A DNA stretch of 37,175 nt from a virus. Below the pieces are notes generated by a model, which was not told the DNA's origin, made no database searches, and saw only the letters and a program-made list of their open reading frames with translations. Shown here piece by piece: positions 26,043-31,626 of the stretch; the first letter of the stretch is position 1, and each line of letters opens with the position of its first letter. A program made the translations under genes and the position numbers. The stretch is from positions 1 through 37,175 of IMG/VR virus record IMGVR_UViG_3300020171_000077. The stretch is one strand, 5' to 3'.

Positions 26043-26924
26043 ATGATGGAAAAAGACTTGCAGGTTCAAAACGAAATGGCGATGGCGGATGATTTTTTGA
26101 TCCAGGTGGCGGAACAAGCCGAAAGACGAATTGATGCTGTTATTAAAATCAGAAAGGTGGCTCTTAAAGTAACCAACCCCCGGGACTGGACTGACCAGAA
26201 TGGCAACCCATATTTACAAGCCTCCGGATCTGAGAAGGTAGCAAACCTCTTTAATATCTCCTGGAGAATTGATGAACCGACATACGAAGAAGATCCAGAC
26301 GGACATTATACATATTCTTATAAGGGTCATTTTTCTCTGGGTTCCAGAACAACAGAGGCGGAGGGATCACGTTCATCGAGGGACAAGTTTTTTATTCAAT
26401 ATTCTTATGAAGAAAAGGAACGTACTGAAATCTCTATTTCCGATCGAAGTAACAAACGGGACGTGAAAATGGCAGCCTATACCAACCTTCTCGGCAACGG
26501 GATTACCCGTATCCTCGGCATAAGAAACCTAACCTGGGATGATCTCAAGGAGTTTGCCAATATCACCAAAGAGCAGGTCACAACCATTCAATATAGGAAA
26601 GGGGGAGATAAGCCTTCCGTCCGGATGCCTACAGAGAAGCCTCCTAACGGCGAACCCTCCAATGTTCCCATCCTCTCTGGTATGAAAATCGACAGCGTGA
26701 GCCAGGCAGCCGGAAAGAAGGATGGCCGGGATTATGTGAAATATACCGTCAATATCGGCGAGGTGAAATACACAACCTTCTCAAAGACAGTTGCCGAGAC
26801 CGCCAAAAGAGCAACCTCATTTGAGGGAGTTACCGCCAATATTGAATATAAAGATACCAAGTTTGGTCCGGAGATCGTCTCCATAGCCCTCAATGAGCCT
26901 CCGGAGCCGGGGAGTGAAGGATGA
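26043..26924 (+). CDS. Putative recombination-module protein (annealing/DNA-binding)
   Basis: 293 residues. A helical start (NEMAMADDFLIQVAEQAERR) leads into a domain with NGNPYLQASGSEKVANLF, YTYSYKGHFSLGSRTTEAEG and DVKMAAYTNLLGNGITRILG. This block recurs in phage proteins lying next to recombination nucleases. The C-terminal ~85 residues (IDSVSQAAGKKDGRDYVKYT) look like an OB-type beta domain. I infer a single-strand-annealing or DNA-binding role from its place beside a PD-(D/E)XK nuclease and a coiled-coil partner. SD AAAGGAGGGG. Confidence 0.5.
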   Translation: MMEKDLQVQNEMAMADDFLIQVAEQAERRIDAVIKIRKVALKVTNPRDWTDQNGNPYLQASGSEKVANLFNISWRIDEPTYEEDPDGHYTYSYKGHFSLGSRTTEAEGSRSSRDKFFIQYSYEEKERTEISISDRSNKRDVKMAAYTNLLGNGITRILGIRNLTWDDLKEFANITKEQVTTIQYRKGGDKPSVRMPTEKPPNGEPSNVPILSGMKIDSVSQAAGKKDGRDYVKYTVNIGEVKYTTFSKTVAETAKRATSFEGVTANIEYKDTKFGPEIVSIALNEPPEPGSEG

Positions 26925-27277
26925 CCTGTCCCAATCCTCAATCGATAGTAGAGAATGGCTGTATGCAAGCTAACTGTCGGCATAATGTTTTTTGGGTAAA
27001 GCTCGGCCTGAATAAAAGGGCGGGCTCCAACAGGGTTAGCCGACAGTTCCACAACTGTATGTGTTTGTTCGATAAGGATCTGACCTTGGATAAGATCGGC
27101 GCCATGTGGGGACTAAGCCGGGAGAGAGTCAGGCAGATCGAACGGAACGCAACGATAAAACTGCTATCACACGGGATTGACAAAGACATTTTAGAGGCAA
27201 TGGATATCGACCACCAGGGGGTAAAGAGAAAATTAATCGAACTGAAGGGGAAGAGGATGAAGGGGGAGAGAAAGTGA
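26921..27277 (+). CDS. Sigma-region-4-like HTH protein with N-terminal Cys cluster
   Basis: 118 residues. Residues 54-82 (LTLDKIGAMWGLSRERVRQI, then ERNATIKL) copy the sigma70 region 4.2 signature that recognises -35 elements. The N-terminal half has Cys at 3, 14, 19, 46 and 48 and may bind metal. No region 2 is present, so it is not a complete sigma factor; it could be a repressor, an anti-sigma or a promoter-specificity adaptor. ATGA overlap with the previous gene. Confidence 0.68.
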   Translation: MTCPNPQSIVENGCMQANCRHNVFWVKLGLNKRAGSNRVSRQFHNCMCLFDKDLTLDKIGAMWGLSRERVRQIERNATIKLLSHGIDKDILEAMDIDHQGVKRKLIELKGKRMKGERK

Positions 27278-28377: not shown

Positions 28378-29055
28378 ATGGAAGCTCAAATAGTCAGTCC
28401 AGAAGTCATTCAATCAACCGAGAAAGCTCTTACAGTCATTGATATGGCTCAGAAGGTCAATATCGCAACGGTCAGTGATTATCAGTTTGCACAGACCCTT
28501 ATGAAAGATATCAAAGACCGGATCAAGACCCTGGAGGAGACCAGGATGAACCAAACAAGGCCCTTGGATGAATCAAAATCAAGGATCATGGATTTCTTTA
28601 GGGGTCCTCTCCAAAAGCTGACCGATGCCAAAGCCCACCTAAACACCATTATGGTCAAATGGACCGAGGATCAGGAGACCAAGCGCCGGGAAGAGGAGAA
28701 GCGGTTACAGGCGGAAGCTCGAAAAAGAGCCGAGGAAGAAGCACTCCGTCAGGCCCTTGAAGCCGAGGCTCTTGGAGAAAAGGAGGAAGCGGAAGCCATA
28801 CTCTCCGAGCCGGTCTATGTCCCGCCGATCAAGGTGGTGTCGGAGATACCGAAGTCAAAGGAATCCCATATTAGAGAGACATGGTCTGCTGAGGTAATGG
28901 ACCTAAAAGCCTTAGTTGCAGCCATAGCTGCGGGCAAAGCGCCGCTTCAGGCAGTTATGGCTGATATGACATTCTTGAATGGTCAAGCAAGGTCCTATAA
29001 GGAGGCGTTGAATATGCCGGGTGTGAGAAGTGTGTCTAAGAAAACACAGATCTAA
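28378..29055 (+). CDS. Coiled-coil recombination-module partner
   Basis: 225 residues. Residues 1-90 are helical (VIDMAQKVNIATVSDYQFAQ). Residues ~95-145 form a long charged coiled coil (EEEKRLQAEARKRAEEEALR). The C-terminal domain has HIRETWSAEVMDLKALVAAI and NGQARSYKEALNMPGVRSVS. This type is common in phages next to annealing proteins and exonucleases; biochemical role unknown to me. AAAGGAGGAGAA before ATG. Confidence 0.6.
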   Translation: MEAQIVSPEVIQSTEKALTVIDMAQKVNIATVSDYQFAQTLMKDIKDRIKTLEETRMNQTRPLDESKSRIMDFFRGPLQKLTDAKAHLNTIMVKWTEDQETKRREEEKRLQAEARKRAEEEALRQALEAEALGEKEEAEAILSEPVYVPPIKVVSEIPKSKESHIRETWSAEVMDLKALVAAIAAGKAPLQAVMADMTFLNGQARSYKEALNMPGVRSVSKKTQI

Positions 29056-29307: not shown

Positions 29308-29405
29308 AACAGGGTCGGTGGCGAAAGCCAGGTTGGGGGAACAGTGGTAGGATGTGAGGGAACGCATATCAAGGAGCAGCGTGGGGAATCCTGCCCGACC
29401 CTGTT
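29308..29405 (+). ncRNA. Structured repeated element S, copy 1
   Basis: An 11-bp closing helix AACAGGGTCGG (29308-29318) / CCGACCCTGTT (29395-29405). Next to it is a short GNRA hairpin TGGC-GAAA-GCCA (29319-29330) and a helix TAGGAT / ATCCTG (29348-29353 / 29388-29393). ACGC/GCGT lies further inside. The same closing helix, GAAA hairpin and 3' end occur at 30336-30443 with different internal loops. It leads into the SD of the following gene. Confidence 0.6.
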
Positions 29406-29418
29406 TGAAGGAGGGATA

Positions 29419-29604
29419 ATGTCAGCTAACCATCTTATTTTGTTTGGGAGTTTGTGTATGATAGCAAGCATCATGGGGATTCCTACCGGGATAACCTACA
29501 TTTGGCCTGATTATACAATATCAATGCCGTGGAGAATAGGCATATCCGTGGTGACGGTTGCTCTGTATAACCTTTTTTGGGCATTAAAGTATAAGATAAT
29601 ATAA
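29419..29604 (+). CDS. Small membrane protein (61 aa), first cassette
   Basis: ATG 29419 with GAAGGAGGG upstream; a longer reading from 29344 would run through the structured element. Two hydrophobic helices (LILFGSLCMIASIMGIPTGI; ISVVTVALYNLFWAL). The stop codon lies in ATATAAC, the first part of an attC-like half-site. Function unknown. Confidence 0.58.
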   Translation: MSANHLILFGSLCMIASIMGIPTGITYIWPDYTISMPWRIGISVVTVALYNLFWALKYKII

Positions 29605-29623
29605 CATAGAGTTGAGCGGCGGA
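29599..29623 (+). other. attC-like half-site a
   Basis: ATATAAC (29599-29605, contains the stop of the previous gene), then ATAGAG and TTGAGCGGCG. These match the R''-spacer-L'' order of the complete sites nearby, but no L'/R' half follows; an SD and ATG come directly after. Confidence 0.45.
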
Positions 29624-29629
29624 GGACTT

Positions 29630-29833
29630 ATGACCGAGAAAATCAGCGGACTATCAAACGTCCGCATAATCACAGGTTGGGTAATATCCTGTCACAACGA
29701 GTGGTGTTCTGGCATAGAAAACTACAAATATATTGATGGGTCAAAACCACCGGATGAACCCATAAACTGTCCAACTTGCGGGTGGCCCGCTATTAGGGGA
29801 TCGGGGATACGAGCTTTAAAGGAAGCCATCTAA
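29630..29833 (+). CDS. Cassette protein with zinc knuckle (67 aa)
   Basis: ATG 29630 after GGCGGAGGACTT. Contains VISCHNEWCSGIENYKYIDG and INCPTCGWPAI, a probable zinc ribbon. The stop codon TAA lies within ATCTAAC, the core of the complete attC-like site b. Confidence 0.58.
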   Translation: MTEKISGLSNVRIITGWVISCHNEWCSGIENYKYIDGSKPPDEPINCPTCGWPAIRGSGIRALKEAI

Positions 29834-29884
29834 CGTAGAGATAAGCCGTGGCTGTAAGCCATCGGCTTGATTGCCTTGTTAGGC
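29828..29884 (+). other. attC-like recombination site b (complete)
   Basis: 57 bp. R'' ATCTAAC (29828-29834, fits RYYYAAC), spacer GTAGAG, L'' ATAAGCCG (29841-29848), hairpin TGGCT-GTA-AGCCA, L' CGGCTTGAT (29863-29871) with extrahelical G at 29869, spacer TGCCTT and R' GTTAGGC (29878-29884, fits GTTRRRY). The order, spacing and size are those of integron attC sites, in the orientation expected after a cassette gene. Judged by eye. Confidence 0.72.
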
Positions 29885-29898
29885 GAAAAGAGAAGATC

Positions 29899-30030
29899 AT
29901 GAAACATTGGAGAGCAATAATTAAAGGTGTTTGCATAGGAATATTTATAAGTACAGTAATGGGATTACAAATAGACGATTATCGTTGCTGGATTACTGTA
30001 GTTACATTCAATATAATGGTTAACATTTAA
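29899..30030 (+). CDS. Membrane microprotein (43 aa) in cassette
   Basis: ATG 29899, weak SD (AGAGAAG). MKHWRAIIKGVCIGIFISTV then a second hydrophobic segment CWITVVTFNIMVNI. The gene occupies almost the whole ~205-bp unit between sites b and c. Stop 3 bp before the R'' core of site c. Confidence 0.5.
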   Translation: MKHWRAIIKGVCIGIFISTVMGLQIDDYRCWITVVTFNIMVNI

Positions 30031-30033
30031 TCC

Positions 30034-30089
30034 GCCTAACGCCAAGGTCAGCGGCGCTCCTGGGCGTCCGCTGGAGTGAATTGTTATCT
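30034..30089 (+). other. attC-like recombination site c (complete)
   Basis: 56 bp. R'' GCCTAAC (30034-30040), spacer, L'' GTCAGCGG (30047-30054), stem extended by CGC/GCG, extrahelical T (30067) and G (30074), L' core CCGCTG (30068-30073), R' GTTATCT (30083-30089). Only GTTA of R' fits the GTTRRRY consensus. Nearly identical to site d except in the loop and left spacer. Confidence 0.66.
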
Positions 30090-30105
30090 TGTTATTGGAG
30101 GGGAT

Positions 30106-30312
30106 ATGTCGAAATCTGAAGAACTTGCAAGAGAATTTGAGGCCCTTATTTGTGAAGTGCAAACACTTGCTATCGAAATTGATGCTATGAAAGTGGCAAA
30201 TAGGGAAAGGGAAATCCAGTACGAAGCCCCCATGTATCATGAGGCGGACTTCCGAGGGGCGGCGGATACCATGAGACAATTCGCCGTGAAGTTTAGATCT
30301 CTCGGAAGATAA
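30106..30312 (+). CDS. Coiled-coil cassette protein (68 aa)
   Basis: ATG 30106 after TTGGAGGGGAT; an upstream GTG reading at 30076 lies inside site c and is unlikely. Helical and acidic: EELAREFEALICEVQTLAIE and a second helix around AADTMRQFAVKFRSL. Stop codon in AGATAAC. Unknown function. Confidence 0.55.
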   Translation: MSKSEELAREFEALICEVQTLAIEIDAMKVANREREIQYEAPMYHEADFRGAADTMRQFAVKFRSLGR

Positions 30313-30316
30313 CAGT

Positions 30317-30335
30317 GCAATAAGCGGGAATATCT
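30317..30335 (+). repeat. Junction repeat GCAATAAGCGG, copy 1
   Basis: GCAATAAGCGG (30317-30327) followed by GAATATCTAACAGGG. A second copy at 31168-31178 also follows a gene end and is followed by AAATATAATAGGG. Confidence 0.45.
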
Positions 30336-30443
30336 AACAGGGTCGGTGGCGAAAGCTGTGAATGTAAGTCGGGGCTTAATTCACCTCGTTAGATTGAGCT
30401 TGCACAGGTGGCTAACTTATAGGACTACCTGCCCGACCCTGTT
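30336..30443 (+). ncRNA. Structured repeated element S, copy 2
   Basis: Closing helix AACAGGGTCGG (30336-30346) / CCGACCCTGTT (30433-30443), extendable through TCTAA/TTAGA with two bulged Ts. The GAAA-capped GGCGAAAGC hairpin is retained. Internal parts differ from copy 1: a hairpin GTGAAT (30358-30363) / ATTCAC (30379-30384) and CAGGT / ACCTG (30405-30409 / 30427-30431). Conserved ends with variable middle suggest a folded element under structural constraint. Confidence 0.6.
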
Positions 30444-30460
30444 TTAGAGAGGAGGGTTTT

Positions 30461-30631
30461 ATGTCTTATACAGACAAACATACATCAAACAATTTTTATG
30501 ACCCTACTTGGGTTTATATATTAACCATTAGAGAACAGCATCAAATGCTTGAAAAACAATCTGAGACTTTAGCTAAATTTTATCCGCATAACGTAGAGTT
30601 AAGGGGTGACAACGAAGAAAGGATAACATGA
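30461..30631 (+). CDS. Small protein (56 aa) reading through an attC-like half-site
   Basis: ATG 30461 after GAGAGGAGGGTTTT. MSYTDKHTSNNFYDPTWVYI then a helix REQHQMLEKQSETLAKF. The C-terminal HNVELRGDNEERIT is encoded by the half-site CATAACGTAGAG (30589 onward), so the frame passes through it. Overlaps the next gene by 4 bp (ATGA). Confidence 0.5.
   Translation: MSYTDKHTSNNFYDPTWVYILTIREQHQMLEKQSETLAKFYPHNVELRGDNEERIT
30588..30607 (+). other. attC-like half-site f (read in frame)
   Basis: GCATAAC followed by GTAGAG, then TTAAGGGG: same R''-spacer as sites b and d, but the rest is replaced by coding sequence. Confidence 0.4.
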
Positions 30632-30870
30632 AAATTGAAACTGGCGTAATGGTGATGAAGAATGGTAAAGCATGGGGAATTGAGTATGAAGATGGACAAA
30701 GCACTTCTTACGGGTGGATTGAGCCAGAAGACGCTCCAATACACGATCCCAAACACTGTAAAAGGCCAACCGATGTTACTTATGAAGATAGTTATCTTAC
30801 TGACGAACTGAAAAAGGGTAAGTTGGTTGCCGTAGAAAGAATAACTACAGTTAAAATTATTGACGCCTAA
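30628..30870 (+). CDS. Cassette protein (80 aa), unknown
   Basis: ATG 30628 in an ATGA overlap. MKIETGVMVMKNGKAWGIEY begins a small beta-rich protein with IHDPKHCKRPTDVTYEDSYL and a terminal strand KLVAVERITTVKIIDA. Stop codon is the TAA of GCCTAAC, the R'' of site d. No family recognised. Confidence 0.58.
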   Translation: MKIETGVMVMKNGKAWGIEYEDGQSTSYGWIEPEDAPIHDPKHCKRPTDVTYEDSYLTDELKKGKLVAVERITTVKIIDA

Positions 30871-30920
30871 CGTAGAGGTCAGCGGCGTGTTGAACGTCCG
30901 CTGGAGTGAACTTGTTATCT
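30865..30920 (+). other. attC-like recombination site d (complete)
   Basis: 56 bp. R'' GCCTAAC (30865-30871, overlapping the preceding stop), spacer GTAGAG, L'' GTCAGCGG (30878-30885), hairpin CGT/ACG, extrahelical T (30897) and G (30904), L' core CCGCTG (30898-30903), R' GTTATCT (30914-30920). Nearly the same as site c. Confidence 0.66.
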
Positions 30921-30937
30921 TCGCAATGGAGGGATGA

Positions 30938-31174
30938 ATGGCAAACCCTAAATATCAACACATCGGAAGCATAGATCACCGCCTGACCGAAGAATGTGCC
31001 GAATTAATAAAAGCGATATGTAAGGCAGAGCGATTTGGATATGATAATTTTCATCCTGAACGTCCCGAGGGATCAAATAGCGATGCTATTTTAAGAGAGA
31101 TCAACGATGTACGAAGGCTTCTCGATGAGATGGAGATTTTCTTGGAAAGAGCAGTTAAAATTACTGGGCAATAA
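30938..31174 (+). CDS. MazG-like nucleotide pyrophosphohydrolase
   Basis: 78 residues. The helical EExxE motif (Glu18, Glu19, Glu22 in LTEECAELIKAI) and ExxD (Glu54, Asp57 in LREINDVRRLL) are the magnesium-binding residues of all-alpha NTP-PPases. Probably hydrolyses a non-canonical nucleotide or alarmone. It is about the length of a single catalytic core. TGGAGGG before ATG; follows site d. Ends in the junction repeat at 31168. Confidence 0.7.
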   Translation: MANPKYQHIGSIDHRLTEECAELIKAICKAERFGYDNFHPERPEGSNSDAILREINDVRRLLDEMEIFLERAVKITGQ

Positions 31175-31191
31175 GCGGAAATATAATAGGG
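31168..31191 (+). repeat. Junction repeat GCAATAAGCGG, copy 2
   Basis: GCAATAAGCGG (31168-31178) overlaps the stop of the MazG-like gene and is followed by AAATATAATAGGG, then an SD. Compared with copy 1, it leads directly to the next gene instead of element S. Confidence 0.42.
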
Positions 31192-31359: not shown

Positions 31360-31373
31360 CAGGTAATAATCAT

Positions 31374-31396
31374 GCCCGATCCTGCTTGAGAGGAGG
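31374..31396 (+). repeat. Element S 3' end, copy 3
   Basis: GCCCGATCCTGCTTGAGAGG and AGG repeat the 3' end of element S. AGCAGG (31358-31363) could pair with CCTGCT (31381-31386). Confidence 0.5.
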
Positions 31397-31605: not shown

Positions 31606-31626
31606 TCCGATCCTGTTTGAAAGGAG
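31606..31626 (+). repeat. Element S 3' end, copy 4
   Basis: TCCGATCCTGTTTGAAAGGA and G matches the 3' end of element S and supplies the SD of the next gene. No matching 5' half is visible. Confidence 0.45.

Follow-up and report, generated by a model that had tools for sequence, protein, structure and literature searches.

Clusters of attC sites lacking an integron integrase (CALINs) have already been described on phages (Qi et al. 2023; PMC9892861), and some of the sites carried by these virulent phages recombine with the integrase IntI1. For example, three attC sites were published for the phage TJE1, and both of the two that were tested recombined with IntI1 (PMC9892861). With respect to the expression of cassettes, a 2022 review presented the reading frames of attI1 as translation starters (PMC8876359), and a paper of 2015 reported that attC hairpins hinder the progression of ribosomes (PMC4670013).

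The locus considered here lies on a virus record 37,175 bases long, referred to as a whole as the window, which is a tailed-phage contig with genes for a head protease, a major capsid protein, a tape measure protein, a lysozyme, a DnaD-like loader, a DnaB helicase and RusA. A profile search of the window returned no match to the integron integrase (TIGR02249), in agreement with the preliminary description of this DNA, to which no tyrosine recombinase had been visible, and no phage record that was searched yielded an intI. Having no intI, the window does not hold a complete integron, in which intI and attI adjoin the array; it holds three attC sites inside 1.1 kb without an integrase, which is the arrangement of a CALIN (at least two clustered sites). 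The region is therefore read here, with a probability of about 0.8, as an integrase-less gene-cassette cluster on a tailed phage, whose cassettes would originate from a host IntI acting in trans and would be exchanged, and which includes a putative subclass of attC sites with a start codon in the loop. This reading is built on the attC anatomy, the matched cassette ends, the equivalent arrays in related phages and the cassette differences at attC, all of them established at the level of sequence. The array region had no blastn match among GenBank phages, and the window had none in Rfam. Elsewhere on the contig, a tandem pair of homologous genes (1431-2994, ~253 aa each) lies between the head protease and major capsid genes and produces cross-matches in the blastn comparison with the relative G001, and a small protein encoded at 26921-27277 contains a sigma-70 region 4 domain (PF04545, E 1.2e-8).

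The sites were sought on both strands with a strict grammar (AAC, a spacer, two paired arms of which the 3' one has two extrahelical bases, a second spacer and GTT), which was used in place of an ungapped-arm scan given that the latter missed the sites because of their extrahelical bases. Exactly three matches were found in the window, the sites a, b and d, against a mean of 0.21 per dinucleotide-shuffled window (300 shuffles). A covariance model (R1), trained on no phage site but on 12 attC sites from bacterial contigs, most of which are integrase-bearing integron contigs of Smithella/Syntrophales, retrieved the same three (46.6-52.6 bits, E 1e-10 to 3e-9), with the next-best match at E 4.4. 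Both methods recognise the imperfect L''/L' hairpin, the extrahelical bases and the unpaired spacer. The proposal of the preliminary description that integron-type attC sites are present in a phage genome is thus upheld by an independent model, on a contig that carries head, tail and lysis genes, and the three sites it had named lie on the + strand at exactly the coordinates it gave. In Tetrasphaera phage TJE1, which served as the positive control, the model finds three sites, the published number, and searching the array-less related phage contigs L012-L024 with it gave no match; its lack of any match in Polaribacter P12002L means that R1 is not universal across attC types.

Site a (29828-29884; R'' ATCTAAC, R' GTTAGGC; 48.9 bits, E 9.1e-10), site b (30034-30089; R'' GCCTAAC, R' GTTATCT; 52.6 bits, E 1.1e-10) and site d (30865-30920; R'' GCCTAAC, R' GTTATCT; 46.6 bits, E 3.3e-9) all have AAC and GTT at the ends of their R'' and R' cores, with the R' of b and d falling outside the strict GTTRRRY. 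The cassette between a and b (29879-30083) has complementary ends, GTTAGGC and GCCTAAC, and contains a 43-aa open reading frame (29899-30030, +), with boundaries taken from the sequence. Following site b, a 68-aa gene of unknown family (30106-30312, +) stops at the TAA of an AGATAAC that is complementary to the R' of site b and that belongs to a half-site with R'' and L'' only (30307-30333, +; repeat family D8). Complementarity in the window is found in one of three site-to-site pairs, plus that of site b with this half-site. A second half-site, GCATAACGTAGAGTTAAGGGGTG (30586-30608, +; repeat families D1 and D2; 9.2 bits, E 4.4), precedes an 80-aa gene of unknown family (30628-30870, +), and 3' of site d lies a 78-aa fragment or relative of a MazG-like nucleotide pyrophosphohydrolase (30938-31174, +; phrog_4856, E 1.2e-10), along with a decayed half-site (31157-31184, +) with 82% identity to that at 30306. 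The stop codon that the preliminary description placed in the TAA of R'' is indeed found there at the first and third sites, where genes end at 29833 and 30870, and not at the second, where the gene stops at 30030.

A fourth, degenerate site absent from that description is located at 29599-29682 (+; R'' ATATAAC, R' GTTGGGT). It falls below the threshold of the covariance model and aligns with a module, M2, of other phage contigs, from which it differs by the loss of outer L' pairs and of a single base in a spacer. The loop of this site contains GGAGG and an ATG, the start of a 67-aa gene (29630-29833, +) that runs through the R' of the site and stops at the TAA in the R'' of site a. Intact sites stand beside decayed ones in the window, and recombination in trans and capture followed by decay, the two mechanisms put forward earlier, are both retained. 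The degeneracy of the fourth site and the several half-sites around it count against the reading of an exchanging cluster, in that the array of the window may be largely frozen.

The same region contains another structured element of ~100 nt (AACAGGGTCGGTGGCGAAAGC ... CCGACCCTGTT), two copies of which (29308-29407 and 30336-30444) lie directly upstream of ribosome sites and have RNA folding z-scores of -3.1 and -3.9, with no Rfam match. Its 3' tails are found at 31371-31395 and 31607-31626, and a similar element is present in the contig L114 at 4779.

Relatives of the window capsid were found on 16 viral contigs, and since all relatives are metagenome contigs, their repeats may be mis-assembled. 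Among the long contigs the nearest is G001 (48 kb; DNA of the head region 74% identical), which has two attC sites downstream of the homologue of the window gene 28378-29055, that is, in the equivalent place and with other genes; searches of the viral contigs via gene 28378 and via DnaB confirmed no relatives. In G014, G025 and G028, attC sites are adjoined by the homologue of the window gene 26043-26924 or by its neighbour. The protein encoded at 26043-26924 is conserved beside the arrays of several phages at 50-60% identity, and it may be a recombination protein, for which it is a candidate. It had no match in Pfam, PHROGs, NCBIfam or a fold search, and a label of annealing recombinase was dropped given the poor structure prediction (pLDDT 59) and the lack of a significant fold match.

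In total, 60 attC sites were collected from 34 phage stretches in uncultivated phage contigs, and the ends of their cassettes were compared by scoring the four outer bases of each R' against the next R'' in successive pairs. Complementarity is perfect in 34 of the 48 phage cassettes, and the total score of 164 compares with 101 expected and with a maximum of 124 in 20,000 permutations. Matched ends of this type are the signature to be expected of units that had each existed as a circle sealed by an integron integrase. They speak of origin only, since the downstream cassette retains the R' tail whichever mechanism of exchange operates, and their use as proof of IntI-driven exchange within phages was accordingly dropped.

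Turnover of cassettes can be followed between near-identical phages. G009, G011 and G015 share 99.8-99.9% identity across 12-14 kb and differ at 0-1 positions in the 2,000 nt upstream of the first attC, downstream of which their cassettes are unrelated. A segment of 0.46 kb in G011 is replaced in G015 by several cassettes, including reading frames named by eye as DNA methyltransferase-like and PAPS-reductase-like, after which the two rejoin for 12.9 kb of common sequence. Similarly, G025 and G028 show no difference in the 900 nt upstream of an attC and then carry different cassettes. In the comparison that the preliminary description had proposed, the cassette interval varies among related phages, with other genes in the same place and with near-identical phages differing at or inside attC; a breakpoint at the G/TT of R', as looked for in that proposal, is seen between G009 and G011, which keep the whole attC and first differ at the G of R', whereas in G011/G015 and in G025/G028 the first difference lies inside the hairpin loop.

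The position of these switches bears directly on how the exchange proceeds. Cleavage by the integrase fits the pattern of G009/G011 and does not explain a switch in the loop, as seen in two of the three close comparisons, which fits homologous recombination within the repeat. It is accordingly a serious possibility, although rated somewhat below even, that current exchange in phages is ordinary homologous recombination, with the ~50-bp attC and other intergenic repeats serving as homology and the attC anatomy persisting as a fossil. The loop switches would agree with this, as would the exonuclease-family genes directly upstream of the window array and the other border of the G011/G015 segment, which is a different repeat without an attC match; the switch of G009/G011 at the G of R', with the whole attC kept, argues against it, as does the failure to identify an annealing recombinase, given that 26043-26924 has no family or fold match. 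The repeat at that right-hand border, TAAC..ATTAACAAgCCATTTTGCCCTGATAA, is found after stop codons in phages that are not related to one another, with copies recorded on the minus strand in L074 (15861 and 16107), L078 (12876) and L070 (12317), and on the plus strand in L114 (4013). Under the preferred reading of an exchanging cassette cluster, cassettes would have made their way into phage genomes, where they would be swapped as small accessory genes, whether through host IntI acting at R', through homologous recombination inside the attC repeats or through a combination of the two.

A single capture with a piece of a host integron, followed by decay and by no exchange at all in phages, would account for the half-sites and the degenerate fourth site of the window. 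Such a dead relic is nevertheless improbable in view of the three intact sites and of the different cassettes that the sister phage G001 and the near-identical pairs carry at the same place.

Some of the phage sites, in this phage and in others unrelated to it, have, in addition, the elements of a translation start. A Shine-Dalgarno sequence and an ATG between L'' and R', counted only where an open frame of at least 25 codons continues beyond R', are present in 6 of 13 long phage sites and in 0 of 44 bacterial sites, and in additional cases the site is degenerate or its Shine-Dalgarno sequence is weaker. Two modules recur: M1 (MKSKRAIPAQVQPVV) in G008, G012 and G176, and in G013 with a decayed 5' half, and M2 (MTKENSGLSNVRSNDL), with three copies in G008 and one in L139. 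Each module is joined in frame to four unrelated bodies, and identity between copies is ~90-95% just 5' of R' and falls to chance beyond R' and upstream of R''. In the 13 fusions listed, a Met close to the junction is missing from most bodies, and the majority terminate in an R''-like TAAC; the frames run 45 to 180 residues into the cassette, and in one fusion a complete MT-A70 methyltransferase domain begins six residues past the leader. The ATG of M1 is predicted to be unpaired in the RNA hairpin (0.78-0.90), with a less clear result for M2. Few or no strong matches to phage families were obtained for the proteins tested from G008 and G012, which have several such sites, and this weighs against the preferred reading. 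M2 was absent from 149 genomes of the Smithella order, in which the single near match is not an attC, and the pattern GAGCGGCGGAGG..ATGACC gave mostly chance matches.

Translation is predicted to begin inside these sites and to read on in frame, across L', the spacer and R', into the cassette that follows, so that cassettes lacking a start of their own would obtain from the site both a start and a leader (~15-25 residues). Given that the window gene 29630-29833 is still open, the fourth site looks like a frozen fusion, and the 67-aa gene looks like one that starts in a decayed member of this subclass. It is an even call whether attC sites in phages have evolved into combined modules of recombination and translation start, through which cassettes arriving in frame would be made as attC-leader fusions, a start would not be needed in each cassette and the starting ribosome would open the hairpin, a structure that otherwise impedes translation. 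Within the literature covered, which mostly lay outside subscription papers, no report was found of an attC encoding the start of the next cassette.

These fusions also weigh on the idea that the cassette differences and the fusions themselves are chimaeric assemblies at repeated attC sites, as could be suspected where the switch points of metagenome contigs coincide with repeats. Long flanks are common to G011 and G015 on both sides of the variable segment, the attC loops of the two differ in themselves, 4/4 M1 bodies and 4/4 M2 bodies are in the frame of the module, and a single contig carries three M2 fusions, all of which leaves mis-assembly a poor prospect as an explanation.

Matches in bacterial genomes bear on the probable host. 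When 84,980 genomes were scanned for the pattern, the same attC type appeared on six contigs, two of which belong to Smithella, and on the contig of Smithella UBA2180 (L064) an intI above the curated cut-off adjoins an attC that is almost the same as site b of the phage, so that the search for intI and a matching attC in the probable host lineage returned both on one contig. intI is present in 56 of the 149 genomes of the Smithella order, and relatives of the window capsid (58-61%) occur in two genomes of this order, while none was found at E 1e-60 in 247 genomes across the phylum. The host is probably a Syntrophales-type bacterium, judging by these matches, and the cassettes would have been made by an integron integrase of such a host acting in trans. 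The short contigs L043 (binned Micrarchaeota), of which a 234-bp stretch is 84% identical to the array of the viral contig L139, and L044 (binned Planctomycetota) also carry this attC type and may be misbinned phage fragments. That the sites are ordinary intergenic phage hairpins, such as terminators or regulatory elements, with a chance likeness to attC is very improbable, as their intergenic position and hairpin formation would allow it but a model built from bacterial sites only gives E values of 1e-9 to 1e-10, 0.21 matches are expected by chance and a near-identical site adjoins intI in Smithella.

The locus is thus of a known kind, and what would be new is the natural turnover of cassettes and the start-in-loop attC, the latter at the level of sequence only. 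Phage-borne clusters, known so far from scattered examples, are extended to a series of environmental phages, some related and others not, with evidence of natural turnover. These phages also indicate an unreported solution for expression, in which an attC would encode the start of the gene behind it together with the N-terminus, and link phages to uncultivated Syntrophales-type integrons as a route for small genes, such as those of methyltransferases and MazG-like enzymes.

Like the CALINs of the virulent phages Tetrasphaera TJE1, Polaribacter P12002L and Pseudoalteromonas PH101 (PMC9892861), the present locus combines clustered attC sites and small cassette genes without an integrase, and it differs from them in belonging to an uncultivated phage family whose arrays are closely related, in the different cassettes that near-identical genomes carry and in the starts in the loop. 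The sedentary chromosomal integrons of Syntrophales type, represented by Smithella UBA2180, share an attC near-identical to phage site b, whereas that integron is complete, with intI on the contig, and lies in a bacterial genome, and the 44 bacterial sites have no start in the loop. Finally, in the attI1 of class 1 integrons, ORF-11 and ORF-18 (PMC8876359) likewise exemplify a recombination site that provides a Shine-Dalgarno sequence and a start, with a frame that crosses the crossover point. There a fixed attI provides a short peptide that terminates close to or right at the junction and works through coupling, an arrangement from which the start-in-loop sites depart, given that in phages the supplier would be a mobile attC and the frame would continue as the N-terminus of the cassette protein.
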